A stretch of 44,587 nucleotides of DNA from a virus. The number at the start of each line of letters is the position of its first letter. Position 1 is the stretch's first letter. Below, one piece after another: positions 2,477 to 41,361 of this stretch. A program made the position numbers and the translations under genes. The stretch lies in IMG/VR virus record IMGVR_UViG_3300025520_000007, positions 1 to 44,587 of that record; one strand, written 5' to 3'. Under the pieces are notes generated by a model. That model was not told where the DNA came from. It saw only the letters and a program-made list of their open reading frames with translations, and ran no database searches.

Positions 2477-2483
2477 CCTGAAC

Positions 2484-2750
2484 TGTGCAGGGTGTGCAGG
2501 GCCTGTGCAGGGTACTGTGCAGGGTGCGAATCGCCCGCAAACGGCTTGCCGTCGCCATTGTGCAGGGTGTGCAAGGTCTCCGCGCGCGTGTACACGCGAG
2601 AACGCACAGCGCCACCGCCCTCATTCCCGAGAAAAATCGATTTCTCGCGTACACGCGACCCTGCACACCCTGCACACCCTGCACATTCCAGCATCCATGC
2701 GGGTTTCCGCCCGCCTCGTACCCTACACATCACCCTACACACCCTGCACA
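2484..2750. repeat. Symmetrical iteron field, candidate replication origin
   Basis: No convincing gene lies between 2477 and 2782. The stretch holds six copies of TGTGCAGGG in the forward direction (2484, 2493, 2504, 2516, 2559, and 2568 as TGTGCAAGG) and six in reverse, CCCTGCACA (2659, 2668, 2677, 2742, plus CCCTACACA at 2721 and 2733). The two blocks flank a centre with a perfect 14-bp palindrome CGCGTGTACACGCG (2585-2598), an AT-richer dyad CGAGAAA/TTTCTCG (2628-2634/2641-2647) and CGCGTACACGCG (2646-2657). Several units are tandem at 9 bp. The position directly after a P4-alpha-like primase-helicase suggests its origin, as P4 ori and crr also use short repeats in both orientations. A packaging site next to the terminase gene is the alternative. 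Confidence 0.8.
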
Positions 2751-2782
2751 AAGGTGTGGGTAGTGGTGAAAGGTGGTGAGCG

Positions 2783-3370
2783 ATGAGCGAAGCGAAGCCG
2801 GAAATGGGGTTCGCCGAATTCGCCCGCCATATCGGCGTCCGGCCCTCCTACATCACCGAACTGCGCAAGGCTGGCCGCCTGGTGCTCACCGACGACGCCA
2901 AGGCCGTGAAGGTCGCAGAATCGCTCGCGCTGATCGACAGCACCCGCGACCCTTCACGCGGCGGCGTAGCGGCCCGCCATGCGGCCGCGCGGGGCCAGGA
3001 AGTCGGACCGCGCACCCAGTCGGACCACGGTGACGACGATGAGCGTGCGGCGAACGTCGCGGCCGCATCGAGCGACCACGGTTTCCAGAAGGCCAAGGCC
3101 ATCAACGAGCGCTACAAGGCGATGACCGCCAAGGTCGAGTACGAACGCCTCATCGGCAAGCTCGCCCCGGTGGCCGACATCGAAGCGGCTGCCGCTGACC
3201 TGGTCACCGCACTGCGCCGCCGACTCGAAGGCATGGGCACCACGCTGGCCCCGCTCGTCGCACCGGTCAGCGAGCCGAGCGCCTGCAAGGCCCTGATCGA
3301 CGAATTCGTCGAAGGCGTGCTGCGCGAAACCTCTGACACCCTCAAACCGAAGAAGGGAACCCCGCAATGA
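2783..3370 (+). CDS. Terminase small subunit-like DNA-packaging protein
   Basis: A 195-residue protein beginning with a winged/helix-turn-helix segment (FAEFARHIGVRPSYITELRKAG, residues about 10-30) of the gpNu1/DUF1441 type. It would recognise the packaging site and hand DNA to the large subunit. The middle is charged and low-complexity (about 50-95); the C-terminal half (ERLIGKLAPVADIEAAAADL onward) is helical and similar to small-terminase oligomerisation regions. It starts 6 bp after GGTGGTG and overlaps the ParB-like gene by ATGA. The assignment rests on the HTH, position upstream of the large subunit and the head gene order; the large subunit is two genes downstream instead of next door. 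Confidence 0.72.
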   Translation: MSEAKPEMGFAEFARHIGVRPSYITELRKAGRLVLTDDAKAVKVAESLALIDSTRDPSRGGVAARHAAARGQEVGPRTQSDHGDDDERAANVAAASSDHGFQKAKAINERYKAMTAKVEYERLIGKLAPVADIEAAAADLVTALRRRLEGMGTTLAPLVAPVSEPSACKALIDEFVEGVLRETSDTLKPKKGTPQ

Positions 3371-4056
3371 ACGCGCCTGAACTGCGCCCGGTGGTTGATC
3401 TGCGCCCCTACGCCGGCAACGCCAAGCGCCACCCGCCGGAACAGATCGAGCAGCTGGCCCGCACCTTCGAAGCGCTGGGCTTCGTCGGCGCGATCGTCGT
3501 GCGCAACGGCACCATCGCCAAGGGGCACGGCAGCCTGAAGGCCGTCGAATCAATCTACGCCCGCGGCGGGCTGCTCTACCCCGCGCCGGGCCGGGAGCAG
3601 GGCGCCGAGCCCTTCCCGGCCGGCACCGTGCCCGTGCTCGATGTCACCGGCTGGACCGAATCCCAGTTCCGCGCCTACGTCATCGCGGACAACCGCCTCG
3701 CCGAGGGCGGCGACTGGGACGCCGAAATCCTGCGCAGCGAACTGGACGCACTGAGCGAGCAGAGCGACCTGGACGACTTCGACTTCGATCACCTGGGCCT
3801 GGATTTCGACGACGTCCTCAGCGCGCTGGACGAAGACGAACGCACCGTCGACGCGAACGCTGCCCACCAGCGCGACGACGACAGCGCGCCGGCCCCGACC
3901 ACCACCGGCGCGGCTACCACAGCCAAGCCGCCGCCGAAGAAGCCCACCGTCTACCCGGTCATGATCAGCCTCAACCGTGCCCAGTACGACCGCCTGCAGG
4001 CCTTCAAGGACGAACACGACATGTCGGACGCCGACGTGCTCATGAGAGGAATCTGA
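3367..4056 (+). CDS. ParB/sulfiredoxin-fold domain protein
   Basis: A 229-residue protein with an N-terminal ParB-like domain: LRPYAGNAKRHPPEQIEQLA, then IAKGHGSLKAV (the GHGR-type box) and YVIADNRLAEGGDWD (residues about 7-120). The C-terminus is acidic, then Pro/Thr/Ala-rich, ending in a segment (VMISLNRAQYDRLQAFKDEHDMSDADVLM) that may be a small DNA- or protein-binding module. Phage proteins of this type have been described as nucleases, NTP-binding proteins or DNA-modification partners; which applies here is not shown. It sits between the terminase subunits and overlaps the downstream radical-SAM gene by 1 bp (TGATG), suggesting a functional pair. It has no partner ParA, so plasmid partition is unlikely. 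Confidence 0.8.
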   Translation: MNAPELRPVVDLRPYAGNAKRHPPEQIEQLARTFEALGFVGAIVVRNGTIAKGHGSLKAVESIYARGGLLYPAPGREQGAEPFPAGTVPVLDVTGWTESQFRAYVIADNRLAEGGDWDAEILRSELDALSEQSDLDDFDFDHLGLDFDDVLSALDEDERTVDANAAHQRDDDSAPAPTTTGAATTAKPPPKKPTVYPVMISLNRAQYDRLQAFKDEHDMSDADVLMRGI

Positions 4057-5432
4057 TGTCACTCCGCATCTACACCGGCGAATACCTGATCTCCCCCGCG
4101 CTGCTGCACTTCGGCGGCAACTGGTGCACGCACGGCTGCGCCTACTGCTTCGCGAACCTGAACAAGCCGGATCGCGTGTCCGACCAGAACGACATCGCGC
4201 GCGTGCTGAAGTGGTTCGATACCGGATCCACGTCCATGGAGTTCGAACTGCTGCAGATGGGTCACCCGATCCTGATGAGCAACGACAGCGACCCGTGCGC
4301 GAAGAGCAACGCGGCGACTCACCGCTGCATCGTCGAGGCGCTGTCGCCGCTGGGCGTGCGCTTCGCGTACCAGACCCGCGGCGGCGTGCCGGAAGAGGAA
4401 CAGCGCATCATCGATCAGGCCCCGACCATGGTCTATGTGTCGCTCACCACCGACGACGAAATGGTGCGCCAGCGCCATGAGCCGGGCGCGCCGCCGCACG
4501 CGCAGCGCATGCAGTTCATCCGCCGCCTGCGTGAAGCCGGCCACATGGTGGTGATCGGCCTGAACCCCTTCGTGCCCAAGTGGTGGGGCGACGTCGACGC
4601 CTGCTTCGAGCAGCTGGCCGGCTGGGGCGTTACGCACGTGTGGCACCAGGCTATGCATCTGTCGCGCTGGCAGATCAGCGCCATGTCCGACAAGGCCAAG
4701 GTCAAGCATGCCGACCTGATCGACTACGCGTCGAAGAAGGTCGCACCCGACGCGAAGGACTACGCCGCCGCGCTCGACCGCATCGAGGCCATGGGCTTCA
4801 ACCTGTTCTCCGGCGGCGTCTCGAACAAGCTGGGCTTCTGGGACGAATGGTTCGACCGCCTCGGCTACCCGTGGTCGCCGACGGTCGATGCGCTGGTGCG
4901 CGACTGCGATCTGGCGTCCGGTGGCCAGCCGCTCGCCATCGACCTGGCGGAGTTCAACGCCTGGGCCGATATCGGCCTGAAGCGCCCGCGCGCCATCTGG
5001 AAAGAGTTCCTGAACGGCTTCGGTCGCAGCGTTCGCAATGCCGGCGAGGACACGCGGGCGCACAGTCAGGCAGAGGCGAACGCCTTCATCTGGCGCTTCG
5101 ACGAATTCCCGACGCGGTTCCGGCACGCCTGCTTCGCCCGCGTGCTGTACGACGACGCGCACGCCGCCGACCTCGACGGCGTGCCCCTCATGGCAGTGTC
5201 GAAAGACGGGTTCGCGGAATGGGAAGTGGGGCATTCCGACGTGACCTTCCTCAACCACCCACTGGAAAGGAAGTGCGATGGCCGAGAACCACTCTGCTCG
5301 ACAGAAGAGCAGCGGCAAGTACAGCACGCGCAAGGGCCAGATGGTCCGCAAGCGCAGTGCCCCGTACTCGCCGAAGTACCGCGGCAGCTAGCAGAAAGCG
5401 GGGCGGCTGAGGCTGCCCCGCCGCAGGCCTGA
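4056..5432 (+). CDS. Phage radical-SAM protein
   Basis: About 458 residues. The N-terminus carries WCTHGCAYCF (residues about 24-33), a CX3CX2C iron-sulfur motif typical of radical-SAM enzymes that cleave S-adenosylmethionine to start radical chemistry. Later segments (MSNDSDPC, VRFAYQTRGG, MVYVSLTTDDE, MVVIGLNPF) fit strands of a partial TIM barrel, resembling SplB/photolyase-like radical-SAM proteins. The substrate is unknown; modification of phage DNA or a nucleotide is a guess based on the ParB-like neighbour. The last 50 residues (after FLNHPLERK) look like non-conserved read-out because another ORF (5278-5391) occupies that DNA in a different frame. The stop overlaps the terminase start (TGATG). 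Confidence 0.8.
   Translation: MSLRIYTGEYLISPALLHFGGNWCTHGCAYCFANLNKPDRVSDQNDIARVLKWFDTGSTSMEFELLQMGHPILMSNDSDPCAKSNAATHRCIVEALSPLGVRFAYQTRGGVPEEEQRIIDQAPTMVYVSLTTDDEMVRQRHEPGAPPHAQRMQFIRRLREAGHMVVIGLNPFVPKWWGDVDACFEQLAGWGVTHVWHQAMHLSRWQISAMSDKAKVKHADLIDYASKKVAPDAKDYAAALDRIEAMGFNLFSGGVSNKLGFWDEWFDRLGYPWSPTVDALVRDCDLASGGQPLAIDLAEFNAWADIGLKRPRAIWKEFLNGFGRSVRNAGEDTRAHSQAEANAFIWRFDEFPTRFRHACFARVLYDDAHAADLDGVPLMAVSKDGFAEWEVGHSDVTFLNHPLERKCDGREPLCSTEEQRQVQHAQGPDGPQAQCPVLAEVPRQLAESGAAEAAPPQA
5278..5391 (+). CDS. Nested 37-residue basic protein
   Basis: ATG at 5278 is preceded by GGAAAGGAAG, the best Shine-Dalgarno in this area, and opens a 37-codon frame ending in TAG at 5389. The product (starting MAENHSARQKSSGKYS) has ten Lys/Arg and one Glu, so it is strongly basic, with no membrane segment. 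It lies wholly inside the 3' end of the radical-SAM frame, in the +1 register, exactly where that protein stops looking conserved. It could be a small nucleic-acid-binding protein. Function unknown; it may also be a chance ORF, but ribosome site and composition favour a real gene. Confidence 0.55.
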   Translation: MAENHSARQKSSGKYSTRKGQMVRKRSAPYSPKYRGS

Positions 5433-7447
5433 TGCAGACCGCACCCGTCACACGTGAAGGCTATGCCGACGTGCGCGAGCGGCTTCGCCGCATCGCGTCG
5501 AAGTCGATCGCTCCGCGCGAAAACCTGACGGTCAGCCAGTGGTCCGACGCGAAGATCCACCTCACCACGAAGAGCGGTGCGAAGGCCGGCCGCTGGGTGA
5601 CCGACAACAACCCGCCGCTGCGCGAGCCCATGGACTGCATGAGCGCCCGCAGCCCGGTGAAGGATGTCGCGCTCATGTTCCCGATCCAGTTCGGGAAGTC
5701 CGCCGTCGGCACCAACGTCGTCGGCTACTGCATGGAGCACGACCCGGGCCCGATCATGTACGCGCTGCCCGGCGAAGTGTCGATGCGCAAGTGGATCAAC
5801 CAGAAGTTGAACCCCATGCTGGAAGCCTGCGAAGCGGTGCGCAACACCCTCGTCAGCCTGTCCAGCCGCGACGCCTCGAACACCCGCGAGTTCAAGGACT
5901 TTCTCGGCGGGCAACTGAATATCGAGCACGCCGGCAGTCCGCAGCGACTGAAGTCCTCGACCGTTTTCCGGCTCATCGTCGACGAGGTCGACGAGTTCGC
6001 CCGCAATCTGGTCGGCGGCGGCGACCCGATGAAGATGCTGGAAGGCCGCACCTCGGCCTATCCGCTGAACTACAAGCGCCTGTACATCAGCACGCCCGAA
6101 CTGCTGGGCGTGAGCCGCATCCACGAACTGTTCCTGAAGGGTGACCAGCGGCGCTATCACGTGCCGTGCCCGCACTGCGGCGAAATGCAGCACCTGGAAT
6201 GGAAGGGCCTGCAGTGGTCCGAAGGCGGCAAGCGCGCCTGGTACGTCTGCCGCGAGAACGGCTGCATCATCGAAGAGCATCACAAACGCCAGATGATCGC
6301 GTTCGGCCGCTGGGTCGCTGCGAACCCCGACGCGGAAATGCGCAGCTACCACATCAACTGTCTGTACTACCAGCCTGACCTCGGCCCGAGCTGGGCACAG
6401 ATGGCGCAGGACTGGATCGAAGCCCAGGGCGACCCGGAGAAGACCAAAACCTTCACCAATGACCGCCTGGCGGAGCCGTATGAAGACCCGTCCATGCGAA
6501 AGGCGAAAGTCAGCCTCATCAAGGACCGGACAGAGCCTTACAAGCTTCGCCACGCCCCGGCCGGCGTGCTCGCAGTCACCGCGGGCGTGGACACCCAGGA
6601 CAGCCGGCTTGCCGTCCACATCACCGGCTGGGGCCGCAGCATGGCCTCATGGACCCTTGACTACGTCGAACTGCCGGGCGATCCCGAGGCCGGCGAGGTG
6701 TGGGACAGTCTTGTCGAACTGCTCAGCCGACCTATCGAACATGAATGGGGCGGCACGCTGCAGGTGCTTGCCGCCGCCATCGACGCCGGTGGCCACCGCA
6801 CGGAATCGGTGAAGGACTTCGTTCGTAGCGGTCGCATTACCCGGCCCATGTGCATTTTCGGATCGCCGCAGAACAACGCGCCTGCGCTCGGTAAGGGAAG
6901 GCTCGAAGACACGAAGCGCAGCGGCAAGTCAGACCGTCGCGGCCTGCTCATCTACCAGGTCGGCACGGTCGCCATCAAGCACCAGCTGTACGCGCGCCTT
7001 TCGACCGACCACGACAAGCAGATCGCCGATCGCCTCGTGCACCTGAGCGAGGATCTGGACGACTTCTACTTCAAGGGCCTTGTGTCCGAGGTCTACAACC
7101 CGAAAAAGAACCGGTTCGAGAAGAAGACCGGCGTGCGCAATGAGCCGCTGGACACCTACACCTACTCCTATGCCGCCGCCCTGCACCCGGAACTGCGCCT
7201 GCATCGGCACAACCGCGACGACTGGGACCGGCGCGAGCGCGAACTGCGCGCGCTGTCCAGCCCCGGCGCCATCCAGGCCGCCAGCGAACGCATCGCCGCT
7301 GCCGCCCGCGCCCGCGATGAGCGCGATGAGCCCGCGCCCTCGCTCGACGGCCGCCGCGACCCGGTACCGATGCCGGCGCCCATGCCGCAGTCGCGCCCGC
7401 GCAACGACGACAGCGACCTCTTCTCACCCATATCGATGATCGGCTGA
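5432..7447 (+). CDS. terL: Terminase large subunit, GpA family
   Basis: A 671-residue packaging ATPase/nuclease of the lambda GpA type. The ATPase domain shows a Walker A-like segment FPIQFGKSAVGTN (residues about 83-95) and a Walker B VDEVDE (about 183-188). A zinc-binding insertion CPHCGEMQHLEW...CREN follows, then the C-terminal nuclease domain with GVDTQDSRLAVHITGW, which carries an Asp typical of the RNase H-like nuclease core. It docks on the portal and drives DNA into the prohead, cutting concatemers. Start ATG overlaps the radical-SAM stop. Length and order of motifs are normal for the family; the C-terminus is Pro/Arg-rich. Confidence 0.95.
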   Translation: MQTAPVTREGYADVRERLRRIASKSIAPRENLTVSQWSDAKIHLTTKSGAKAGRWVTDNNPPLREPMDCMSARSPVKDVALMFPIQFGKSAVGTNVVGYCMEHDPGPIMYALPGEVSMRKWINQKLNPMLEACEAVRNTLVSLSSRDASNTREFKDFLGGQLNIEHAGSPQRLKSSTVFRLIVDEVDEFARNLVGGGDPMKMLEGRTSAYPLNYKRLYISTPELLGVSRIHELFLKGDQRRYHVPCPHCGEMQHLEWKGLQWSEGGKRAWYVCRENGCIIEEHHKRQMIAFGRWVAANPDAEMRSYHINCLYYQPDLGPSWAQMAQDWIEAQGDPEKTKTFTNDRLAEPYEDPSMRKAKVSLIKDRTEPYKLRHAPAGVLAVTAGVDTQDSRLAVHITGWGRSMASWTLDYVELPGDPEAGEVWDSLVELLSRPIEHEWGGTLQVLAAAIDAGGHRTESVKDFVRSGRITRPMCIFGSPQNNAPALGKGRLEDTKRSGKSDRRGLLIYQVGTVAIKHQLYARLSTDHDKQIADRLVHLSEDLDDFYFKGLVSEVYNPKKNRFEKKTGVRNEPLDTYTYSYAAALHPELRLHRHNRDDWDRRERELRALSSPGAIQAASERIAAAARARDERDEPAPSLDGRRDPVPMPAPMPQSRPRNDDSDLFSPISMIG

Positions 7448-7449
7448 CC

Positions 7450-7734
7450 ATGGCACGCGAAGAACTCCTCGACGTCATCCGTGAAGAACTCGCCGCCCAG
7501 CACCGCCGCCTGAGCGTGCCCGACGACGTCACCGTCGAAGTGTGGAAAGGCCTCGAACACCGGCTGCGCTTCCGTGCCGGCGGCAGCGAACTGACCTACA
7601 TCCGGCGACGGCAGGACACGTCCGCGCGCGACGCCGACATCCGGCGCCGCTTCAACGGCCGCAATGCTAACGAACTGGGACGTGACCACAACATATCCGC
7701 GCGCTACGTGCGGAAGATCGCGAAGGGGAAGTGA
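7450..7734 (+). CDS. Mor-like transcription activator
   Basis: A 94-residue protein with the Mor/C family pattern: a short N-terminal helical dimerisation part (LLDVIREELAAQH), a GGSELTYIRRR turn, and a C-terminal helix-turn-helix (DIRRRFNGRNANELGRDHNISARYVRKI). In phage Mu, Mor activates middle transcription with host RNA polymerase. Here the gene is in the late operon, two bases after the terminase stop, so it could boost transcription of the structural genes downstream, or be a leftover. It ends by overlap with the next start (GTGATG). Confidence 0.7.
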   Translation: MAREELLDVIREELAAQHRRLSVPDDVTVEVWKGLEHRLRFRAGGSELTYIRRRQDTSARDADIRRRFNGRNANELGRDHNISARYVRKIAKGK

Positions 7735-8348
7735 TGAACGTACTGAAGGAAATAAATCTGCGGATGAACGGCGGCCGGTGCCCAGGTCCTCGCGCGCTCG
7801 GCGAGTGTGCGGCGATCACGGAGATTCACGCGAAGGGCAGCGAAGACAGCTACTTCACGGCCCACCTGTATCTGCACTGCACTGAAGGCGCGCTGACGCC
7901 GGAGGAGGTCGCCGGATGGTTCCATCAGGCCGGCTGCCTGGATGTCACCATCAGCGCCGTCCTGCACGACCCGGACAACAACATCCTGAACGGCGCCAGC
8001 ATTGACGACGGTGTCCGGCCATGGGACGTGAGCTACCGCCTGCCTCCACGCTACATCGACCCCGAAAAGGAGGAGGCGGCACAGGCGTATCTAGTGTTCA
8101 ACGCCTTCGAGGCTGAGCCACAGACCGAAACGGATCTGACATGCCGCGACACCAACGACCCGCAGTACTGGGCGGATCGACTCCGCGCGGCGGACAAAGG
8201 GGAGTGCGAACGCCTGCTGGACGCCATGTTCGATCTCAGGTTGGGCATGCGCGCCAAAGGCATTCCGACGCCCGGCGCCGATGCGCGCTGTGACGAGGGC
8301 ATGGCACTCTTCGAAGAGCGGTTCGGGGAGCACTACCTGCCGTTTTGA
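7734..8348 (+). CDS. Hypothetical protein, first gene of the cassette-like block
   Basis: A 204-residue soluble protein of unknown function, starting at ATG 7734 behind GAAGGGGAAG and overlapping the previous stop. There is no signal peptide or membrane segment. The C-terminal half is helical with many charged residues (YWADRLRAADKGECERLLDAMFDLR). A hairpin with attC architecture begins three bases after its stop, so it may be the first cassette gene. However, no GTTGTC boundary matching that site's left box is visible upstream, so it could equally be a native phage gene next to which cassettes were inserted. Confidence 0.6.
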   Translation: MNVLKEINLRMNGGRCPGPRALGECAAITEIHAKGSEDSYFTAHLYLHCTEGALTPEEVAGWFHQAGCLDVTISAVLHDPDNNILNGASIDDGVRPWDVSYRLPPRYIDPEKEEAAQAYLVFNAFEAEPQTETDLTCRDTNDPQYWADRLRAADKGECERLLDAMFDLRLGMRAKGIPTPGADARCDEGMALFEERFGEHYLPF

Positions 8349-8350
8349 AG

Positions 8351-8413
8351 CGACAACGCACTAGGTCAGGGGAGCGCCGCTTGCGGCGCGTCCCCTGCAC
8401 CGATGGGTTCGGC
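8351..8413 (+). other. attC-like site 1
   Basis: Left box CGACAAC (8351-8357), 6-bp spacer, L'' GGTCAGGGGA from 8364, inner hairpin GCGCCGCTTGCGGCGC (8374-8389), L' TCCCCTGCACC (8391-8401), 5-bp spacer, right box GTTCGGC (8407-8413). L' read in reverse is GGTGCAGGGGA, so L'' lacks one base and an extrahelical base results, as in true attC sites. GTTCGGC departs from the GTTRRRY consensus at one position. The left box pairs only at its AAC/GTT core, as expected when two different cassettes meet. Confidence 0.7.
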
Positions 8414-8440
8414 GGCGCATACGAAGAGAGGAAATAGAAA

Positions 8441-8692
8441 ATGAAGATTTTCCAGATTAACGACTGCGATTGGTGGATTTGTGAGTCGCTTGAGGCTTGT
8501 GTCCAGGACTACCCCGACTACACCGAAGACGCCCGCGAATTGACCGAGGAAGAACTTGACAGGCTCAAGTTCACCATCTGCGACGATGACGAGCGCCCGA
8601 CCGGCGAAGAGCGCACCTTCCGTGAGCAGCTTGCCGCTGAGATCGCGGCCGGTGGCGAATTTCCGCGCATGTTTGCGAGCATGGAATATTGA
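8441..8692 (+). CDS. Cassette-encoded hypothetical protein
   Basis: An 83-residue acidic protein (starts MKIFQINDCDWWICESLEAC) of unknown function. ATG at 8441 follows the Shine-Dalgarno GAGAGGAAA, 28 bp after the right box of attC-like site 1; the stop lies one base before the left box of site 2. This tight packing is typical of promoterless integron cassette genes. Its composition (DYTEDARELTEEELDRL) and lower GC differ from neighbouring phage genes, supporting separate acquisition. No domain recognised. Confidence 0.75.
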   Translation: MKIFQINDCDWWICESLEACVQDYPDYTEDARELTEEELDRLKFTICDDDERPTGEERTFREQLAAEIAAGGEFPRMFASMEY

Positions 8693-8693
8693 C

Positions 8694-8765
8694 GCCGAAC
8701 GACAAAGCTCAGGGAGCCGACGGCGGCTTTATCGCCGGAGGCTCCCCTGGAGCGGCGGGTTCGGC
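8694..8765 (+). other. attC-like site 2
   Basis: Left box GCCGAAC (8694-8700), 6-bp spacer, L'' GCTCAGGGAGCC (8707-8718), central hairpin CGGCGGCTTTATCGCCG, L' GGCTCCCCTGGAGC (8740-8753), 5-bp spacer, right box GTTCGGC (8759-8765). L' in reverse is GCTCCAGGGGAGCC, two bases longer than L'', giving two extrahelical bases. The left and right boxes are fully complementary. Spacers equal those of site 1. Total 72 bp, inside the usual attC size range. Confidence 0.78.
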
Positions 8766-8794
8766 GGCGCGTGTTGCGGAGAAAGGATAAAGCG

Positions 8795-9001
8795 ATGGCA
8801 GACATTATTGAAAAGCTGAAAGAAGCAGAGGGCCAAGTGGACGGTGATTTACGGAAAACCATCCACGATGCCTGGAATGAAATTTTGTGGATGCGAGAGG
8901 CCGTAGTGCTTTCGAAGCGAGCGGTTGAGATCGCGGAATCGAAAGTGCCGCCGAACGCTGGCATAAGCCGCAGGCCGCGCCAGAGGAGAACTAGACGATG
9001 A
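8795..9001 (+). CDS. Cassette-encoded hypothetical protein running into attC-like site 3
   Basis: A 68-residue, mostly helical protein (MADIIEKLKEAEGQ...), unknown function. The ATG at 8795 has GGAGAAAGGA at a suitable distance and lies about 30 bp after the right box of site 2. The first 50 residues look like a genuine protein; the basic tail (VPPNAGISRRPRQRRTRR) is read from the left half of attC-like site 3. Its stop overlaps the next start (ATGA at 8998-9001), so translation may couple across the cassette junction. Confidence 0.65.
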   Translation: MADIIEKLKEAEGQVDGDLRKTIHDAWNEILWMREAVVLSKRAVEIAESKVPPNAGISRRPRQRRTRR

Positions 9002-9049
9002 GCACTGAACGTGAGGCGCGGACTGTCGGCCTTGATGCCCTTGTTGGGC
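8950..9049 (+). other. attC-like site 3
   Basis: Left box GCCGAAC (8950-8956; GCCGCCGAA matches the start of its own cassette), L'' GGCATAAGCC (8960-8969), L' GGCCTTGATGCC (9028-9039), right box GTTGGGC (9043-9049), an exact GTTRRRY. L' in reverse, GGCATCAAGGCC, pairs with L'' leaving two extrahelical bases. Pairing continues inward (CCGCGCC with GGCGCGG). The terminal loop holds the Shine-Dalgarno AGAGGAG and ATG of the next reading frame. 100 bp in total. Confidence 0.78.
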
Positions 9050-9357
9050 CAGAGCAGATTTACCCGGTGCCGAAGTCTGCGCGGGCACAAGCCAAATACG
9101 AGCCGGGGCCGACGCTGGCTGGCGACGTGAAGCCGGTGCGTGAAGGCCGATACCTGCGTTACTTCGACGACGTGGATGACTGGGCATGGTCTGAATTTTC
9201 GGACGGGCGGTGGCTGCGTGACGGCTTCTGGCCGAGCGATGTGCAAGACGCGCCGTGGCGCGGTGCTGTGCGGCCCAACACTAGATCGACGACATATTCG
9301 TCCGATAAGCCGGCGCCGACTGCAGGAGACGGCTCGCACGCGCCGCATGTCGAATAA
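8998..9357 (+). CDS. Hypothetical protein whose start lies in attC-like site 3
   Basis: A 119-residue frame. ATG 8998 follows AGAGGAG but lies in the loop of attC-like site 3, so residues 1-15 come from the site; GTG 9067, after the right box, is the alternative and would be the cassette's own start. The central part (GRYLRYFDDVDDWAWSEFSD, GRWLRDGFWPSDVQDAPWRG) is Trp/Asp-rich and looks like a real small soluble protein. The final residues are read through site 4 and flanking DNA, so the native C-terminus may be altered. Function unknown. Confidence 0.6.
   Translation: MSTEREARTVGLDALVGPEQIYPVPKSARAQAKYEPGPTLAGDVKPVREGRYLRYFDDVDDWAWSEFSDGRWLRDGFWPSDVQDAPWRGAVRPNTRSTTYSSDKPAPTAGDGSHAPHVE
9273..9311 (+). 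other. Partial attC-like site 4, right box missing
   Basis: Left box GCCCAAC (9273-9279) is an exact RYYYAAC and complements the start of its own cassette (GGCCCAAC against GTTGGGCC at 9043). After a 5-bp spacer come L'' ATCGACGA (9285-9292), a CATAT loop and L' TCGTCCGAT (9298-9306) with one extrahelical base. The right box expected at 9312 after five bases reads GGCGCCG instead of GTTRRRY. The array therefore seems to end in an eroded or rearranged junction. Confidence 0.55.
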
Positions 9358-9378
9358 CGGACGGCCAAACCGGACATC

Positions 9379-9654
9379 GTGACCACCAAGACCATGCGCG
9401 AAGCCATGCCCCAATGCGCCGCATGGGTCGATGCCATGCGCGACGTGTTCGAGCACGAGTTCGTCACCGAGCGCATCCGCAATGGCCTGCAGGATGGCAC
9501 ATGCTGGTTCGCGGAGGGCGGGCAGTATGTTGGCCGTCCCGGTCAGCCTGAGCGCGACGCTGAGCGCGCTGCGGGCGAGCACCGCTTCACCCTCGATCAG
9601 ATTGCCACCGGCGGGGCGCGCTGCCCTGATGCGCGCGCGGAACTAAAAAAGTGA
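9379..9654 (+). CDS. Hypothetical phage protein
   Basis: A 91-residue protein of unknown function, GTG 9379 or ATG 9394 as start; neither has a strong ribosome site. A middle segment (RDVFEHEFVTERIRNGLQDGTCWFAEGGQYVG) resembles a small protein often found near phage head genes. It follows the last, incomplete attC-like site and precedes the gpW-like gene, so it is probably native phage sequence to the right of the cassette block. No membrane segment or signal. Confidence 0.55.
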   Translation: MTTKTMREAMPQCAAWVDAMRDVFEHEFVTERIRNGLQDGTCWFAEGGQYVGRPGQPERDAERAAGEHRFTLDQIATGGARCPDARAELKK

Positions 9655-9670
9655 ACTAGTTCCAGTAGAA

Positions 9671-9949
9671 ATGACCGCGGGCGATTGCGACGCTTGCGGC
9701 ATGGACCCGCTGCATACCCTGTCGCTTGACCGCTTGAACGCGATGCTCGCCGAAGCCATCGAGGCGCGGCACAAGCTCGTTACCGGCCCGACCAGCGCGA
9801 GCGGCGAGGGGCGCAGCATTCAGTACGCGCAGCGCGTCGCCGATGCCGATGCCTACATCGAGCGGCTGAATCAGGCGGTCCGTTCGAAGGAAAGCCCGCA
9901 GACCGCCACGCGCGGCCCGATCTACCTGCAGTCGGGTGGTTGCTGGTGA
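9671..9949 (+). CDS. gpW-like head-tail joining protein
   Basis: A 92-residue protein resembling lambda gpW (PF02831): a first helix LNAMLAEAIEARHKLVTG, a short hairpin carrying SIQYAQRV and a second helix ADADAYIERLNQAVRS. gpW plugs the portal ring after DNA packaging and prepares tail attachment. As in lambda, the gene directly precedes the portal gene and overlaps it (GTGA). Start ATG 9671 is poorly supported by a ribosome site. An N-terminal extension (MTAGDCDACGMDP) is not typical of gpW; ATG 9701 (MDPLHT) may be the true start. Confidence 0.72.
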   Translation: MTAGDCDACGMDPLHTLSLDRLNAMLAEAIEARHKLVTGPTSASGEGRSIQYAQRVADADAYIERLNQAVRSKESPQTATRGPIYLQSGGCW

Positions 9950-11535
9950 AGCGCGGGCGCACTCGCGTGAAGGCGCCCGCGCGGTCGGCGTCGATGCACA
10001 CCGCGCACGTCGGCGCATCGCGCACCGATGTCGCCCTGTCGAACTGGCACCCCTTCCCCGGCAGTGCCGATTCCGATCTGCTGCCGGACCTCGAACTCCT
10101 CACCTCCCGCTCGCGCGACCTTGCCCGGAACAACGGCATTGCAGCCGGCGCGGCCCAGACCTTCAAGGACAACATCGTCGGTTCGGTGCTGCGCCTGGTC
10201 GCGGTGCCGGACTACCGGCTGCTGGGCTGGAAGCCCGAGCAGGCGCGCGAGTGGGCGAACGTCACGGAGCCGCTGTTCCGGTCGTGGGCGGACACCACGG
10301 ACTGCGACGCGTCCGGCGAGCAGGACCTGCTGGGCCTCACCCTTTCGGCGCTGGGCGGCACCTTCGGCAACGGCGACGCGCTGGCCCTGCCGCTGTGGTT
10401 GCCCGACCCGCTGTCGCAGTGGTCGACCCGCCTCTCCCTGGTCGAATCGGACCGCCTGTCGACGCCCCCGCAGCTTGAGCACCGCGAGGACATCCGCGGC
10501 GGCATCGAGAAGGACTTTTACGGCCGCCCGGTGGCCTACCACGTGCGCCGTCGTCACCCGGGCGACGCGATGGCGCGCGACCGCTTCATCGTCAGTGGTC
10601 TGAATGACTGGGACCGCATCCCCGCCACCACGCCGTGGGGCCGCCGCCGCGTCATCCATCTGCACGACAAGGACCGCACCGGCCAGTCGCGCGGCAAGCC
10701 CATCGTGTCGGCGGTGATGAAAGAATTCCACATGGCTGGCAAGTACCAGACCACGGAACTCGAAGCCGCCGTGTCGAACGCGCTGGTCGCTGCATTCCTC
10801 GAATCGAACCTCGATCAGGAATCCGCGAACGAACTTTTCGGTTCCGACCCGCGCGAGGCATGGGGCACTTCAGTCAAGCAGGCGCAGAACCTGCGCCAGA
10901 TGCGGGGCGCAGCCATCATTCCGCTGCCGGCCGGCGCCAAGCTCACGCCGTTCGCGCCGGGCCGGCCGAATGCCGCGTTCGAGGCCTTCATGATCGCGTC
11001 GCTGCGCCACATCGCGGCCGGCATGAACATTCCTTACGAACTGCTGCTGAAGGACTTCAGCAAGACGAACTACAGCAGCGCCCGCGCCGCGCTGCTCGAA
11101 GCCTGGCGCTACTTCATGGGCCGCCGCGCCTGGCTCATCCGTGTCTGGCTGCGCCCGGTCTATGAACTGTGGCTGGAAGAGGCGGTGAACGCCGGCCGCG
11201 TCGATGCGCCGGACTTCTACGAAAAGCGCTACGCCTACTCGCGCTGCCGCTTCATCTTCTCCGGCCGCGGCTGGATCGATCCGGTGAAAGAAGCCGAAGC
11301 CGCCGGCATCCGCATGCGCCTCGGCATTTCCACGCTGGAAGCCGAGTGCGCTGAACAGGGGCTGGACTGGGAAGAGGTGCTGGAGCAGCAGGCCGCAGAG
11401 CGCGCCGTCCGCCAGCGCCTGGGCCTTCCGCTGGACATCCCGTCCGCATCCGGCGCCCCGGCGCCGTCCGCCGGCCAGCGCGCCCCGCAAACCAACGAAG
11501 AGCGCGATGAAGAGCGCGAGGACGCCGCCGCATGA
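9946..11535 (+). CDS. Portal protein, lambda gpB family
   Basis: About 529 residues, the usual length for lambda-family portals. It forms the dodecameric vertex ring through which DNA enters. Family features include SRDLARNNGIAAGAAQTFKDNIVG near the N-terminus, a long middle region with PVAYHVRRRHPGD, and the motif ASLRHIAAGMNIPYELLLKDFSKTNYSSARAALLEAWR. The C-terminal tail is Pro/Glu-rich. GTG 9946 overlaps the gpW-like stop; TTG 9940 is less likely. The 3' end overlaps the protease start (ATGA). Confidence 0.95.
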   Translation: MKRGRTRVKAPARSASMHTAHVGASRTDVALSNWHPFPGSADSDLLPDLELLTSRSRDLARNNGIAAGAAQTFKDNIVGSVLRLVAVPDYRLLGWKPEQAREWANVTEPLFRSWADTTDCDASGEQDLLGLTLSALGGTFGNGDALALPLWLPDPLSQWSTRLSLVESDRLSTPPQLEHREDIRGGIEKDFYGRPVAYHVRRRHPGDAMARDRFIVSGLNDWDRIPATTPWGRRRVIHLHDKDRTGQSRGKPIVSAVMKEFHMAGKYQTTELEAAVSNALVAAFLESNLDQESANELFGSDPREAWGTSVKQAQNLRQMRGAAIIPLPAGAKLTPFAPGRPNAAFEAFMIASLRHIAAGMNIPYELLLKDFSKTNYSSARAALLEAWRYFMGRRAWLIRVWLRPVYELWLEEAVNAGRVDAPDFYEKRYAYSRCRFIFSGRGWIDPVKEAEAAGIRMRLGISTLEAECAEQGLDWEEVLEQQAAERAVRQRLGLPLDIPSASGAPAPSAGQRAPQTNEERDEEREDAAA

Positions 11536-12863
11536 AAACCTATCCCCACCTCGCCGGAAGGCTTTTCAACACGCCGCTGCTGGTGCATGCCCCGGCGCTG
11601 GACGCGCTGCTGGCCGGCATCGGACCGCGCCTGCTCGGCCTCTCTGACGACGCGCTCGCACAGGCGCTGTCGCTTGGCAGCAGCGAGCCGGGAATGTTCT
11701 CGACCCGTCGCGGCGAGCGCGTGAAGGAAGCCGGCTGGCCCGGCTATTCCGTCGTCGATGGCGTGGCCGTCGTGTCCGCGAGCGGCGCGCTCGTCCATCG
11801 CACCAAGCTCGACGCCGATTGCACGCTGCTGCTGGGCTACAACGACCTGTCTATGGCGACCGAGCACGCCATGGAGAACAACCCGGATGTACACGCCGTG
11901 CTGCAGGTCTACGACAGCCCCGGCGGCGAAGTGCAGGGCGCCTTCGAGTACGGGCAGCGCATGTTCGAACTGCGCGGCAAGAAGCCGCTCATCGCCATCG
12001 CCGACGGTATGGCCGCCAGTGCTGCATACCTGGGCGCGTCCGCGGCCGATGAAGTGGTGGTCAGCCGCACCGGCTATGCCGGCTCCATCGGTGTCGTCAT
12101 GCGCCACGTCGAGGTGTCGCGCCTGCTGGCGAACGAAGGCATCAAGGTGACGCACATCTTCGCCGGTGCGCACAAGGTCGACGGCAATCAGTTCGAAGTG
12201 CTGTCGGCCGCCGTGCAGGCCGAACTACAGGCCGAGGTCGACGACCTCTACAGCCAGTTCGTGGGCGCCGTGCTGCAGCACCGCCCGCGCATGACCGACG
12301 AAGGCATCCGCAAGACCGAAGCGCGCGTGTTCCGCGGTGTCGCCGCCGTCGCGGCCGGCCTGGCGGACCGCGTGTCGACCACCGACCAGTTGATTTCCGA
12401 GTTGGCGGCACGCCGCCCGACTCGTTCCTACGGGCAGCCCGCCCGAGCCACCGCCGAGCAGAAAGGAGACACCACCATGTCCGGCACCCAAGCACAGGCG
12501 GGTTCGCAAGCGCCCGCCGCCACCTTCACCCAGGCCGATCTGGACGCCGCGCACGCCCGCGGCCGCGAAGAAGGTGCCAAGGCGGAGCGCGAACGCGCGT
12601 CCGCGATCCTCTCGCACGAAGAAGCCAAGGACCGCGGCGCGCTGGCCCTGCAATGCGTCAGCACCGGTCTGTCGGTAGAGCAGTCGGCCGCGATTCTCGC
12701 CGCCGCCCCGAAGGCCACGCCGGCCGCCGGTGCCGCCAGCGGCTTCGCGGCTGCCATGGCCAACGTGCCGAACCCCGATGTCCGGGCGGGCGAGTCCAAG
12801 GGCTCGGAATCCGACCCGAAGGCGATCGCATCCATGTGGGATCACGCGCACGGCACGGCCTGA
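11532..12863 (+). CDS. Capsid maturation protease (S49, lambda gpC-like) with C-terminal scaffold
   Basis: 443 residues. The N-terminal 290 residues form a ClpP/SppA-type S49 serine protease: YDSPGGEVQGAFE, then AIADGMAASAAYLGASAADEVVVS with the serine nucleophile in the ADGMAASAAY block. The C-terminal 130 residues are Ala/Glu-rich and helical (ADLDAAHARGREEGAKAERERA), a scaffold. The protease cuts scaffold and portal proteins inside the prohead. A strong internal ribosome site makes the scaffold separately (next entry), as for lambda C and Nu3. Confidence 0.92.
   Translation: MKTYPHLAGRLFNTPLLVHAPALDALLAGIGPRLLGLSDDALAQALSLGSSEPGMFSTRRGERVKEAGWPGYSVVDGVAVVSASGALVHRTKLDADCTLLLGYNDLSMATEHAMENNPDVHAVLQVYDSPGGEVQGAFEYGQRMFELRGKKPLIAIADGMAASAAYLGASAADEVVVSRTGYAGSIGVVMRHVEVSRLLANEGIKVTHIFAGAHKVDGNQFEVLSAAVQAELQAEVDDLYSQFVGAVLQHRPRMTDEGIRKTEARVFRGVAAVAAGLADRVSTTDQLISELAARRPTRSYGQPARATAEQKGDTTMSGTQAQAGSQAPAATFTQADLDAAHARGREEGAKAERERASAILSHEEAKDRGALALQCVSTGLSVEQSAAILAAAPKATPAAGAASGFAAAMANVPNPDVRAGESKGSESDPKAIASMWDHAHGTA
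12477..12863 (+). CDS. Nested scaffold protein (Nu3-like)
   Basis: In-frame ATG 12477 within the protease gene is preceded by AAAGGAGACACCACC, the strongest Shine-Dalgarno of the region. It would give a 128-residue protein starting MSGTQAQAGSQAP with a coiled, Ala/Glu/Arg-rich body ending in ASMWDHAHGTA. In lambda the scaffold Nu3 is likewise translated from inside gene C and shares its C-terminus. It should direct capsid shell assembly and then be degraded by the protease. Confidence 0.75.
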   Translation: MSGTQAQAGSQAPAATFTQADLDAAHARGREEGAKAERERASAILSHEEAKDRGALALQCVSTGLSVEQSAAILAAAPKATPAAGAASGFAAAMANVPNPDVRAGESKGSESDPKAIASMWDHAHGTA

Positions 12864-13303: not shown

Positions 13304-14320
13304 ATGGCTCACATGGACATCTTCAACGACCGTGCTTTCAACATGGTCGACATGACGGCGGCGATCAACAAGCGCCCGCACCTGCCCACCTTCCTGCGCT
13401 CGCAGAACCTCTTCACCCCGAAGCCGGTGCGCACGGCATCGGTGTCGATCGAGCGTCAGAACGGCAAGCTTTCGGTCATCCAGACCAGCGAACGCGGGGC
13501 GCCGCCGAAGGTTGCCGACGCCAACAAGCGCGACATCCGCGACTTTCGCACGGTTCGCCTTGCCAAGGGCGACAAGCTGCTTGCGGCCGAGGTCGATGGC
13601 ATCCGCGCCTTCGGTTCGAGCAGCGAACTTCAGCAGGTGATCGAAGAGGTTGCGCGTCGCCAGACCAATCTGCTGCGCGATCTCGAACTGACGCTGGAGC
13701 GCATGCGCCTGGGCGCCGTGCAGGGCATCGTTCTGGACGCTGACAACACGGTCATCCGCAACTGGTACGACGAATGGGGCATCACGCAGCCGGCGGAGAT
13801 CGATTTCGAACTCGATGTCGAAACCACTGACGTGCGCAAGAAGTGCATTGCGGTCGTGCGTGCCATGGCGCGGGCCGCCGAAGGCTCATGGGTGGATGGC
13901 GTTACGCAGGTGCATTGCCTTGCCGGCGACGACTTCTACGACGCGCTGACGAATCACGCGAACGTACGCCAGACCTACCTGAACTGGACGGCGGCAGCCG
14001 AACTGCGCGAGGGCAACGCGTTCGAGTCGTTCCGCTATGGCGGCATCACCTTCCACAACTACCGCGGTACCGACGACAACAGCACCGTGGCGGTTTCGCC
14101 GACGCTGGCGAAGTTCTACCCGGTGGGCGCAGTCGACGTCTTCCAGGTTGCGCAGTCGCCGGCCGAAACCTTCGATTTCGTGAACACCCCGGGTCAGGAG
14201 TTCTACACCTGGATCGTTCGCGACAAGGACCGCAACGCCTGGGTGCAGCCGGAAATCTTCAGCTACCCGCTGCACATCTGCACCCGCCCGCTGATGCTGC
14301 AGCGCGCGAAGCTGGCCTGA
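13304..14320 (+). CDS. Major capsid protein, lambda gpE family
   Basis: 338 residues (lambda gpE 341). Family segments: FNMVDMTAAINKRPHLPTFL at the start, TASVSIERQNGKLSVIQTSERGAPP, and a C-terminal GQEFYTWIVRDKDRNAWVQPEIFSYPLHICTRPLMLQR. It adopts the HK97 fold and forms the icosahedral shell. Ribosome site AGGAGA 10 bp upstream. Highly likely the most expressed structural gene. Confidence 0.96.
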   Translation: MAHMDIFNDRAFNMVDMTAAINKRPHLPTFLRSQNLFTPKPVRTASVSIERQNGKLSVIQTSERGAPPKVADANKRDIRDFRTVRLAKGDKLLAAEVDGIRAFGSSSELQQVIEEVARRQTNLLRDLELTLERMRLGAVQGIVLDADNTVIRNWYDEWGITQPAEIDFELDVETTDVRKKCIAVVRAMARAAEGSWVDGVTQVHCLAGDDFYDALTNHANVRQTYLNWTAAAELREGNAFESFRYGGITFHNYRGTDDNSTVAVSPTLAKFYPVGAVDVFQVAQSPAETFDFVNTPGQEFYTWIVRDKDRNAWVQPEIFSYPLHICTRPLMLQRAKLA

Positions 14321-14325
14321 TAGCG

Positions 14326-14661
14326 ATGGCATCCGCGCCCTTCGCCGCCATGCTCGACGACATCGACCGCCAGACGCAGTCGATGCTGTCGGACGCGCTC
14401 GCCACGTGGTTTCCATCCACGGGCGAGCCGGCGTGCGAAGAGGTGTCGGTCATCTTCGGGCTGGAAGAGGTCGACGCCTTCTCGGGCAAGCGCACTGAGG
14501 CGATCAAGTATCTGCTGGCCGATCTGCCCGGCCTGCGCAAAGGCGAGTCCATCACCATCGTTCACGGCGCCACCTCGGCGGAGTATGTCGTGGGCGATAC
14601 GGGGCTGCTGTCCGCAACGCGCGGCATCGCCTGGCTGAACAGCAAGCGGGCCTGCGCATGA
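14326..14661 (+). CDS. Head-tail connector candidate
   Basis: 111 residues (MASAPFAAMLDDIDRQTQ...). A predicted N-terminal helix is followed by a beta-rich part (VSVIFGLEEVDAF, SITIVHGATSAEYVVGD). Size and place, directly after the major capsid gene and before a tail-terminator candidate, correspond to lambda FII-type connectors or DUF3168-neighbour proteins. ATG 14326 is chosen because it lies 6 bp after the capsid stop. The end overlaps the next gene by ATGA. Assignment is mainly positional. Confidence 0.6.
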   Translation: MASAPFAAMLDDIDRQTQSMLSDALATWFPSTGEPACEEVSVIFGLEEVDAFSGKRTEAIKYLLADLPGLRKGESITIVHGATSAEYVVGDTGLLSATRGIAWLNSKRACA

Positions 14662-15098
14662 CCCCGAACCGCAACTGGCTCGACGCCGAACCGCTCATCC
14701 TGCACCGCCTGCGCCAGCGCTTCCCGGACGCCGAAGTGCTGCCGTGGAAAGACGTGCCCGACAACATGAGCCTGCTGCCGCTGCCCATGGTAGCCCTGCG
14801 CTTCGTCGGCTTCCATGTCGTGCCGAGCGACCGGCCGCTGCCGCGCGAAGCGCGCCTGCGCGCGGAGTGGCACGTGATCGTCGCCGGCCGCGAAGGCACC
14901 GAGCACGACCCGTCGGGCCCGGCCTCGGCCCAGCTGTCCGACCTGTGCGGCCGCGTGCTGGGCGCGCTGCTGGGCTACCGCCCCGACGGCTTCCCCAAAC
15001 CCCTCATGCCGATCGACACCCCCGCCATGTTCCCCGAAGCGGGCGTCGAGTCGCATGCCTGCGGCTTCGGACTTGAGTTCGTGGCTGTCGCAACCTGA
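14658..15098 (+). CDS. Tail terminator/completion candidate
   Basis: 146 residues with alternating strands and helices: HRLRQRFPDAEVLPWKDV, PMVALRFVGFHVV, ARLRAEWHVIVAGREG, then LCGRVLGALLGYRPDG. This pattern (short helix, beta sheet, long helix) fits gpU/Gp37-like tail terminators, which cap the tail tube and join it to the head. It sits where lambda has Z/U. No diagnostic motif, so the name is an inference. Confidence 0.55.
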   Translation: MTPNRNWLDAEPLILHRLRQRFPDAEVLPWKDVPDNMSLLPLPMVALRFVGFHVVPSDRPLPREARLRAEWHVIVAGREGTEHDPSGPASAQLSDLCGRVLGALLGYRPDGFPKPLMPIDTPAMFPEAGVESHACGFGLEFVAVAT

Positions 15099-15109
15099 AA
15101 GGACATCAC

Positions 15110-15616
15110 GTGCCCATCGCACCCACTGACATCGAGTTCCGCCTGTCCGGCGGCGGTTCGAACACCGACCCCAATGCTTCGCTGGGCGGCGCGAAGAGCA
15201 GCACCGAAATCGGTACCGGCCTGCACAACCTGTTCGACATCGTCGGCAGCGCCGAATCGGCGGCCGGCGACACCGAATACCGCTGCTTCTACGTGCACAA
15301 CGCGCACGCCACGCTTGATCTGGAGAACGCAGTCATCTTCATCCAGAGCAACACGCCCAGTGCCGACACCAGTGTCGAGATCGCTGTCGGCAGCTCCGCC
15401 GTGAATGGCACGGAGCAGACCGTCGCGAACGAATCAACCGCGCCGACCGGCGTCACCTTCAGTGCAGCGGCGAATCTCGGCGCAGCGCTCGCCCTCGGCA
15501 CCATTCCGGCCGGCGAGCACCGCGCCGTGTGGGTGAAGCGCATCGTGGGTGCCGATGCCGCCGCGTACAACGACGACCAGGTCACCCTGCGCGTGCAGGG
15601 CGATACGGCGGCCTGA
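15110..15616 (+). CDS. Virion structural protein of unknown role
   Basis: 168 residues, GTG start behind GAAAGGA. The sequence is beta-rich and Gly/Thr/Ala-rich (IEFRLSGGGSNTDPNASLGGAKS, CFYVHNAHATLDLENAVIFIQ, HRAVWVKRIVGADAAAYNDDQVTLRVQGD). Such immunoglobulin-like segments are common in tail surface or fibre-related proteins. It overlaps the next gene (TGATG), the start of a run of four structural genes before the tail tube. Function not recognised. Confidence 0.6.
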   Translation: MPIAPTDIEFRLSGGGSNTDPNASLGGAKSSTEIGTGLHNLFDIVGSAESAAGDTEYRCFYVHNAHATLDLENAVIFIQSNTPSADTSVEIAVGSSAVNGTEQTVANESTAPTGVTFSAAANLGAALALGTIPAGEHRAVWVKRIVGADAAAYNDDQVTLRVQGDTAA

Positions 15617-33439: not shown

Positions 33440-34003
33440 TTACGCGACTTCGCCGCGAACTTCACGTTCCAGTTCGCGGAGCATCATGGCCTTTCCGATC
33501 CTGACCATGACGTTTTCGCCCCACTCCCTCATGCCAAGATTCACGGCAAGGCAAACCACTCGGCAGTTCTCCAGCACATAACCCTTTGATGAGTCGATTC
33601 TGTCCAGGCTCATCGAAAACGGAGCAGTTTTGCTGCCCGTCGGGATTTCGTCAGAAAACTTGATGCCGGTTATTTCGCATTTGCCGTTCGACCGAAGCAG
33701 AATGAGTTTCAAGGTATTTGCCGAAATGCTCGGGTGACCCTTGGCAGCCTTGACCGATGGTTTGTTGATTCTCTGAATCGTCCGTCCGATCCACGACTTC
33801 GCGTCTGTTGGCATGCTCTCAACCTCCGTCTCCCACGCCACGGACGCAAAGTACGCACGTTTGGCCGTTTCAACCTGTGCAAGGATTTTCATCGCTTCGG
33901 CAAGATCGCCGGTTCGCGTTGTTCTGCAAATGCGAACTCCGTTGATCACCTTGTCGATGTGCCACACACCACCATTCAGCTTGAGGCCTTTGGGCTTCTT
34001 CAT
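33440..34003 (-). CDS. Integrase-arm-domain/HNH-like chimera
   Basis: 187 residues. Residues 5-47 (LKLNGGVWHIDKVINGVRIC, RTTRTGDLAEAMKILAQVE) closely mirror the N-terminus of the integrase encoded next door (LTQRDGIWHINKVIDGERIY, KSTGTGSLEEAEQILIHLL), i.e. the arm-type DNA-binding strands. The rest carries an HNH-like core: C109 in KCEITGIKF, SLDRIDSSKGYVLENCRVVC (132-151). No integrase catalytic domain is present. It overlaps the integrase stop by ATGA and lies between integrase and attP. A nuclease targeted to integrase arm sites is the natural hypothesis; the lower GC suggests recent acquisition. Confidence 0.75.
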   Translation of the reverse strand: MKKPKGLKLNGGVWHIDKVINGVRICRTTRTGDLAEAMKILAQVETAKRAYFASVAWETEVESMPTDAKSWIGRTIQRINKPSVKAAKGHPSISANTLKLILLRSNGKCEITGIKFSDEIPTGSKTAPFSMSLDRIDSSKGYVLENCRVVCLAVNLGMREWGENVMVRIGKAMMLRELEREVRGEVA

Positions 34004-40276: not shown

Positions 40277-41361
40277 CCGCACAGCCCATACGAAGACGCG
40301 CACGCCGTTGGCTCGATCAGATCCGCGAGCAGGTCGTACGGCTTCCCGCCGCGACTGGTCTTCGCCCACTCGACGCGCGCATAGATGTTCAGGTCGGCGA
40401 ATATCTCGCGACGGTCCGCGGCTTCGTGCCCATCTGACAGCATCGTCGAGAAGCCTCTCTTGCAGGCCTGCCCGACCAGCAGCTCCCACTGCGCGATTCG
40501 CTCAACGTGCTCCGGCCATCGCGCGGATATCTGGCGAAGCTCATCCTTACCCACGTTGATGCAAGGCATGCAGCCGACACGCGAGCAGCCCTGCAGATAG
40601 AGCGGGTTGGGCTGTATGCCAGCCTGCGCGCAGTGATCGAACACCTGCGCAGCCGACCACTCAACCAGAGGCCGGAACGCGAACATGCGCGGCCCGATGC
40701 GCTCAAACTTCAGCGCATTGGCACGTGCCGGCGATTCGTCCCGACGAACCCCCTGCCATGAAACAACCGTGTGGCCCTGGTCGACCAGTTCCAACTGGAA
40801 CAGCACGGCCGGCTTCGTCTTGAGCTCTTCCGTGCAGAACTGAGCCTTCCGGGACGGGAACCGCCCTTTCCAGAGGCACAAGTCGAGATATGGATTGCCC
40901 GTCGGATGCAGGATCTCCAGCGCGCGGCGCTTCGCCGTGTTCGTCCAGCGGACCTTTCGACCACCGCCCACCTTTCGGGTCTTCGGCACAGCCTCGACAA
41001 CGGTTTGTCCGCGGCGCACGACCGTCCTCGTGACGATGCTCCCGCGAGCGTCACGCTTTGGAACCGGATTCCCTGCGCTGTCCAACACCACGGCACGCGG
41101 GTACTGCCGACCTACACGGCGATCCCGCGCGATGAACATCCGTTTCGCAGCAATCTCGTCATCGAACGACGCGCGCAGGCGGTGGATCTGGATGTCCAGC
41201 GCCTGTTCGAGGTAGTCCAGGTACTCATAGACCGCCTCGTGCTCATTCCCGGTGTCGCAGAAGATTGGCACCACGCGGTCGCGGGGGAAACGCGACAGCG
41301 CGAGCAGCAGCGTAGCCGCGCTGTCCTTGCCGCCGCTGACGGAGTGGACGTGCAGGATCAT
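40273..41361 (-). CDS. PAPS reductase/ATP-pyrophosphatase family protein
   Basis: 362 residues from ATG 41361. N-terminal PP-loop SVSGGKDSAATLLLAL (7-22) with PIFCDTGNEHEAVYEYLDYL, a CTEELKTKPA segment and VVSWQGVRRDESPARA. A C-terminal cysteine set (GCSRVGCMPCINVG) may bind a metal or cluster. The family activates substrates with ATP for sulfur transfer; phage members are suspected of DNA or tRNA modification or cofactor scavenging. Its stop overlaps the ATG of the second frame over the methyltransferase. Confidence 0.88.
   Translation of the reverse strand: MILHVHSVSGGKDSAATLLLALSRFPRDRVVPIFCDTGNEHEAVYEYLDYLEQALDIQIHRLRASFDDEIAAKRMFIARDRRVGRQYPRAVVLDSAGNPVPKRDARGSIVTRTVVRRGQTVVEAVPKTRKVGGGRKVRWTNTAKRRALEILHPTGNPYLDLCLWKGRFPSRKAQFCTEELKTKPAVLFQLELVDQGHTVVSWQGVRRDESPARANALKFERIGPRMFAFRPLVEWSAAQVFDHCAQAGIQPNPLYLQGCSRVGCMPCINVGKDELRQISARWPEHVERIAQWELLVGQACKRGFSTMLSDGHEAADRREIFADLNIYARVEWAKTSRGGKPYDLLADLIEPTACASSYGLCG

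Follow-up and report, generated by a model that had tools for sequence, protein, structure and literature searches.

Clusters of attC sites lacking an integron integrase gene (CALINs) are already known in phages. The accessible part of Qi et al. (2023; PMC9892861) reports 17 CALINs in phage genomes, for instance in Tetrasphaera phage TJE1, and the use of phage attC sites by IntI1. The locus analyzed here resembles those CALINs in comprising attC arrays without intI and small accessory genes, which in theirs include methyltransferases. On the other hand, in the TJE1 attC site, read in the direction of the genes, it is the left arm that bears the extrahelical bases (i.e., the canonical arrangement), unlike our locus, and the accessible part of Qi et al. 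(2023; PMC9892861) describes neither presence/absence alleles among near-identical phages nor genes reversed relative to attC. A canonical attC site has its extrahelical bases (EHB) on the R''-L'' arm, and R' is where the crossover takes place (PMC2727003). Bouvier et al. (2009; PMC2727003) found that inverting the EHB in a synthetic VCR attC site switched the recombined strand and moved the crossover to R''. Our locus displays the same shift of the crossover to R'', albeit in a natural array instead of engineered mutants. The inverted integrons of Spirochaetota (PMC9668308) also depart from the usual polarity, but there intI is turned and not the cassette genes. Finally, the sedentary chromosomal integrons of Methylophilaceae share with our locus an attC consensus close enough for a single covariance model (CM), and differ from it in that their cassettes are canonical (93:1) and their arrays begin at intI/attI.

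The sequence under study was IMGVR_UViG_3300025520_000007 (positions 1–44,587), and the whole 44.6-kb stretch is termed the window (W) below. The gene content of this virus record is that of a phage (terminase, Mor-like activator, gpW, portal and integrase), and a 205-aa gene and a 91-aa gene enclose three small genes with long hairpins in between. The features are as follows.

4056–5432: radical SAM protein, immediately 5' of the terminase gene
5432–7447, plus strand: terminase large subunit (gpA), upstream flank
7450–7734, plus strand: Mor-like late activator, upstream flank
7731–8348, plus strand: 205-aa gene, fixed left flank of the array, found in W, L002, L003/L015 and L004
8351–8413, minus strand: attC1, scanner score 14.6, CM 25.0 bits on the minus strand, natural cut within AAC 8355–8357
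8357–8699, plus strand: cassette A, 343 bp, ORF 8441–8692 (83 aa, phrog_5459)
8694–8765, minus strand: attC2, AAC 8698–8700 and GTT 8759–8761, scanner score 15.6, CM 27.5 bits on the minus strand and 2.9 bits on the plus strand
8700–8955, plus strand: cassette B, 256 bp, ORF 8795–9001 (68 aa, or 76 aa from GTG 8771)
8950–9049, minus strand: attC3, scanner score 18.9, CM 19.5 bits on the minus strand, long variable terminal structure
8956–9278, plus strand: cassette C, 323 bp, ORF 8998–9357 (119 aa, or starting at 9067)
9277–9311, minus strand: outer edge, AAC 9277–9279 being the junction of three different alleles (L004, L002 and W)
9379–9654, plus strand: 91-aa gene, fixed right flank, also present in the cassette-free L006, L007 and L017
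9671–9949: gpW
9940–11535, plus strand: portal protein, downstream of the array
34000–35190, minus strand: phage tyrosine integrase, PF00589 match only
40273–41682, minus strand: PAPS reductase domain protein (PF01507)

With three sites in 0.7 kb, the array is best classified as a CALIN, a class expected to have two or more attC sites spaced by no more than a few kb and to lack a neighboring intI. Judged from its sequence, the window does not appear to bear a complete integron, as neither intI with the IntI-specific domain nor attI was recognized.

The attC identity of the hairpins was examined with two approaches. Our own scanner, which searches for AAC…GTT boxes plus a stem behind unpaired spacers, detected the three sites, each of which possesses a long imperfect stem between AAC and GTT. 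In 20 dinucleotide shuffles of the whole window, there were on average 0.1 matches scoring 14 or more and none scoring 15 or more. One further match scoring 12 or more was found in W, at 36724; it is weak, and both of its arms contain gaps. The CM was trained on 34 chromosomal attC sites from the Methylophilaceae integrons adjoining intI and contained no phage site. With default filters, its sole match in the whole window was 8352–8413 on the minus strand (E = 2.7e-4). With the filters off, the top three matches in 7700–9700 were precisely the three attC sites (27.5, 25.0 and 19.5 bits), all on the minus strand, and the only plus-strand match at any of them scored 2.9 bits. The R boxes (RYYYAAC/GTTRRRY) are complementary in their outer bases at 4/4 positions in site 2 and 3/4 in site 3, as expected for attC. 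In attC1, the outer complementarity is 0/4 in W, because the end of the 205-aa gene now takes the place of the outer box, and 3/4 in L004, in which cassette X resides at this site and the box reads GCCTAAC. The stem strength of the sites corresponds to z of -2.6 to -4.0. The AGGAG (ribosome-binding-like) motif and the ATG of ORF 8998–9357 are situated within the variable end of attC3 (8983–9000), as expected if an attC site lies 5' of its gene, while the ORF of cassette B continues through the box into the following attC. Rfam returned no match, to which we give little weight as the attC family may be absent from that library. The first-pass annotation of this DNA had proposed four hairpins of the attC plan in an array between the terminase and portal genes; the array and three of the hairpins are borne out by the scanner and by a CM built from chromosomal sites, but the fourth, at 9277–9311, is not. 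The self-matching cassette ends that it listed (TTCGGC/GCCGAA, twice, and TTGGGCC/GGCCCAA) are indeed present. Altogether, the three window sites are, on sequence grounds, genuine attC-type sites, and A, B and C real integron cassettes.

The polarity of these sites is opposite to that of the genes they accompany. Read on the plus strand, the extrahelical bases (2, 2 and 3 in sites 1–3) are on the right arm in 7/7 cases; this places the canonical attC on the strand opposite to the genes, the minus strand. Read on the minus strand, all of the extra bases are on the L'' arm, as in known attC sites. The earlier observation that L'' is one or two bases shorter than L' holds for the plus strand, but it does not indicate a plus-strand orientation: canonical extra bases lie on L'' (PMC2727003), and the missing bases thus assign the sites to the minus strand. 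In the controls, namely TJE1, the Vibrio anguillarum phage integron and both arrays of Shewanella phage M16-3, the extra bases were on the left arm in the gene direction, and in the Methylophilaceae arrays, with intI placed to the left, they were on the left arm in 76/78 sites. The plus strand of W, equivalent to the canonical bottom strand, folds at least as well as the opposite strand at every site. The genes of cassettes A, B and C thus run opposite to their own attC sites, and the cassettes are not canonical in layout. The idea that reversed attC sites are selected for supplying stop codons (many ORFs end in ...NV*) was rejected, as the chromosomal consensus TCAAACGTT gives an in-frame stop at least as often.

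Natural recombinants were found in L004 and L002, metagenomic IMG/VR contigs from different IMG datasets with flanks 96–98% identical to W over the aligned stretches; every contig of this phage family is of metagenomic origin. Compared to W, L004 has a 345-bp cassette X inserted in attC1 and lacks cassette C, and L002 has cassette C replaced by a 605-bp cassette D. The ends of the three indels (345, 323 and 605 bp) share exactly a 3-nt overlap, AAC, and nothing beyond; in W, the overlaps are at 8355–8357, 8954–8956 and 9277–9279. The natural junctions are therefore AAC on the plus strand (GTT on the minus strand) at site 1, site 3 and the edge, the phosphodiester being indistinguishable within the 3-nt overlap. 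Such overlaps are what one would expect if IntI acted at the minus-strand G|TT. The first-pass annotation had anticipated relatives differing by whole cassettes, with cuts at 8407/8408, 8759/8760 and 9043/9044. Whole-cassette differences do exist, but none is at the plus-strand G|TT of the right boxes, the indels falling in the three AAC motifs instead. Other relatives, L003, L006, L007 and L017, are free of the array and have other genes in the same slot. The array region is a hypervariable gene hotspot. No match to the L004 array was found in a DNA search of the INPHARED phages, and no isolate with the array is known there.

In the same hotspot, L004 (2130–2500) and L003 (12300–12690) have an extra small gene after the Mor-like gene and before the 205-aa gene. 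It is flanked by direct repeats of ~40 bp (CGCGCTACGTGCG...AAGGGGAAGTGATGAAC) that copy the Mor gene end, indicating a second, non-attC route of gene gain.

At the right edge of the array, the hairpin at 9277–9311 received no CM match and has no GTT box, and 39/300 shuffles fold as well. Its AAC is nevertheless a fixed recombination edge, and the segment, which is recognizable as neither attC nor attI, may be attI-like or a decayed attC. Three different right-edge cassettes share the reading frame in which they run into the fixed flank (9279–9357 in W and its equivalents in L004 and L002), and each of their ORFs ends with a common 25-residue tail encoded by the fixed flank, TRSTTYSSDKPAPTAGDGSHAPHVE; the probability of this agreement by chance is 1 in 9.

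Further viral arrays were gathered by a DNA pattern of the chromosomal attC type regardless of orientation. L103, L105, L109, L113 and L115 are mainly reversed, L107 is mixed, like L010 (found through the 83-aa gene), and L112 (a provirus contig) is canonical. L105 (helicase and methyltransferase) and L115 (terminase) are clearly phage, and the cassette genes are co-directional with the neighboring large genes in L105, L113 and L115. The 20-kb contig of L105 (G201) has eight attC sites in two clusters, 11461–12469 and 14159–15260. Under a uniform ORF rule, the phage arrays including the window family had 20 reversed, 4 canonical and 11 ambiguous cassettes; 11/35 calls are thus ambiguous, and the coding strand of several short cassette ORFs is set by ORF length alone. 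The same rule assigned 1 reversed, 93 canonical and 5 ambiguous cassettes to the chromosomal arrays of Methylophilaceae (~1% reversed). The difference in orientation is significant per cassette (Fisher p = 1e-17), also when L112 and L114, left out at first, are added to the phage count (21:7; p = 1e-16). Counted per array, with mixed arrays set aside, the ratio is 8:1 in phages against 0:15 in chromosomes (p = 1e-5), which is the safer value because the cassettes in one array are not independent of each other. Several reversed ORFs match the phage families phrog_5459, 31522, 478, 6628, 22725 and 21696, which supports their coding strand. Reversed cassettes with the 83-aa gene (phrog_5459) recur elsewhere: in L010 next to genes of lysis type, and in L029 next to a gene resembling a phage integrase. 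The predicted structure of this family (pLDDT 94) has no solved relative, and the similar proteins are all phage proteins of unknown function. PADLOC gave no match for ten cassette proteins.

In Shewanella phage M16-3 (L024; 14664–16921), canonical cassettes are antisense inside a late operon. Relative to that operon, attC thus has the polarity seen in the window phage, though the genes are not reversed.

No integron integrase was found in W by the profile TIGR02249, agreeing with the absence noted in the first-pass annotation, and none of the 25 other virus records searched, many of them fragments, had one above the cut-off. Two short IntI matches were dismissed: that in L029 is within a phage-integrase-like remnant (by eye), and that in L104 is an ordinary phage integrase. 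Many betaproteobacterial hosts have an integron integrase, and we found IntI over the cut-off in 67/187 Methylophilaceae genomes. Host IntI acting in trans is probably the enzyme, as inferred from the structure of the sites. A search for the host with the terminase, covering 369 genomes of the class, yielded matches of 31–38% only, and the host was not found.

One integron links the phage cassettes to bacteria. In a Methylotenera MAG, contig JAURWJ010000029.1 (L025/L083) bears an integron (309–3974) with an integron integrase (479 bits), and five cassettes read as reversed are placed between intI and a canonical cassette. Among them are a member of the 83-aa family, a fragment of a C5 DNA methylase and a phrog_28528 protein; the remaining two are unknowns, and the automatic ORF rule called one of these canonical. 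This integron is akin to the window in its reversed cassettes, the 83-aa family and the attC type, but differs in having intI, in being part of a bacterial MAG and in continuing with at least one canonical cassette. Cassettes proximal to attI are usually the newest, and on that account the reversed cassettes of Methylotenera look like captures from a phage pool.

We considered how else the locus could be explained. The first-pass annotation had placed the attC sites on the plus strand in the orientation of the genes, with canonical cassettes and cuts at G|TT of the right boxes. Such a reading is invited by the near-palindromic R boxes, since AAC…GTT is seen on either strand, but it is very improbable: the CM scored all three sites on the minus strand against one feeble plus-strand match, 7/7 extra bases would be on the wrong arm, and the three natural junctions, all at the AAC of a left box and none at G|TT, already refute it. 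We give next to no credence to the view that the hairpins are terminators or chance structures and that the relatives differ by illegitimate recombination or misassembly. The stems are strong and the hotspot is hypervariable, as this view would have it, but no T-run terminator is present on the plus strand of the array, an independently trained attC model scored the sites, the polarity of the bulges is uniform, and the identical AAC overlap was found in three events on contigs of different IMG datasets.

Two other alternatives accept the attC sites. They could be moved by a non-integron recombinase, such as the phage tyrosine integrase at 34000–35190 on the minus strand, given that W has this gene and that IntI was detected in none of the virus records. 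We regard this as quite unlikely, as the same cassette types adjoin intI in Methylotenera and the attC features are retained, including extrahelical bases spaced by about six to seven; to our knowledge, only IntI reads such features. The array could also be a decayed, immobile remnant, in which recombination has ceased and the alleles diverged long ago. The right edge without a recognizable attC, and attC3, which is long and has the lowest CM score, are compatible with decay, but whole-cassette differences between flanks 96–98% identical, together with intact AAC junctions, make this unlikely.

We are thus rather confident in an explanation in which an integrase-less attC cluster occupies a variable region of the late operon, holds reversed cassettes from a reversed pool and is served by host IntI in trans at AA|C. 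Each cassette gene is on the plus strand, with its attC canonical on the minus strand, and would be read with the late operon; the array region showed neither promoter-like nor plus-strand terminator-like patterns, consistent with read-through. The attC strand folded and cut by host IntI would be the coding strand of the phage operon, and cassettes would be swapped by exchange at AA|C on the plus strand (G|TT on the minus strand). Exchange between attC sites keeps polarity, and for this reason an array with antisense attC would express only the cassettes with reversed genes, which would enrich such cassettes in phages. Phages of this polarity would take their cassettes from a reversed, phage-type pool and keep it up; from there, cassettes could enter the chromosomal integrons of the hosts, where they would be antisense to the usual cassette promoter.

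On balance, we lean toward a broader view, in which a dedicated metapopulation of reversed cassettes is common to betaproteobacterial phages, the polarity of attC versus the operon filters phage from bacterial cassettes, host IntI is needed, and host integrons pick up the cassettes as silent phage DNA. In the open-access literature we found CALINs of phages (PMC9892861), whereas reversed cassettes in phages were not described there. Beyond the CALINs known since Qi et al. (2023), a phage-typical pool of reversed cassettes looks new, and so do the natural recombinants. The latter provide natural, nearly base-precise evidence of phages exchanging integron cassettes, where the earlier work, in its accessible part, had static arrays and an IntI1 assay. 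The locus raises the question of why attC is antisense to phage operons, making the recombinogenic strand the coding strand. The gain and loss of cassettes at the exact cut point indicate a cassette pool on the side of the viruses, with an enzyme that is apparently not virus-borne. Cassettes that have passed through phages may be recognizable by their reversed polarity, a simple mark in the sequence by which the traffic between phages and chromosomal integrons would become measurable.
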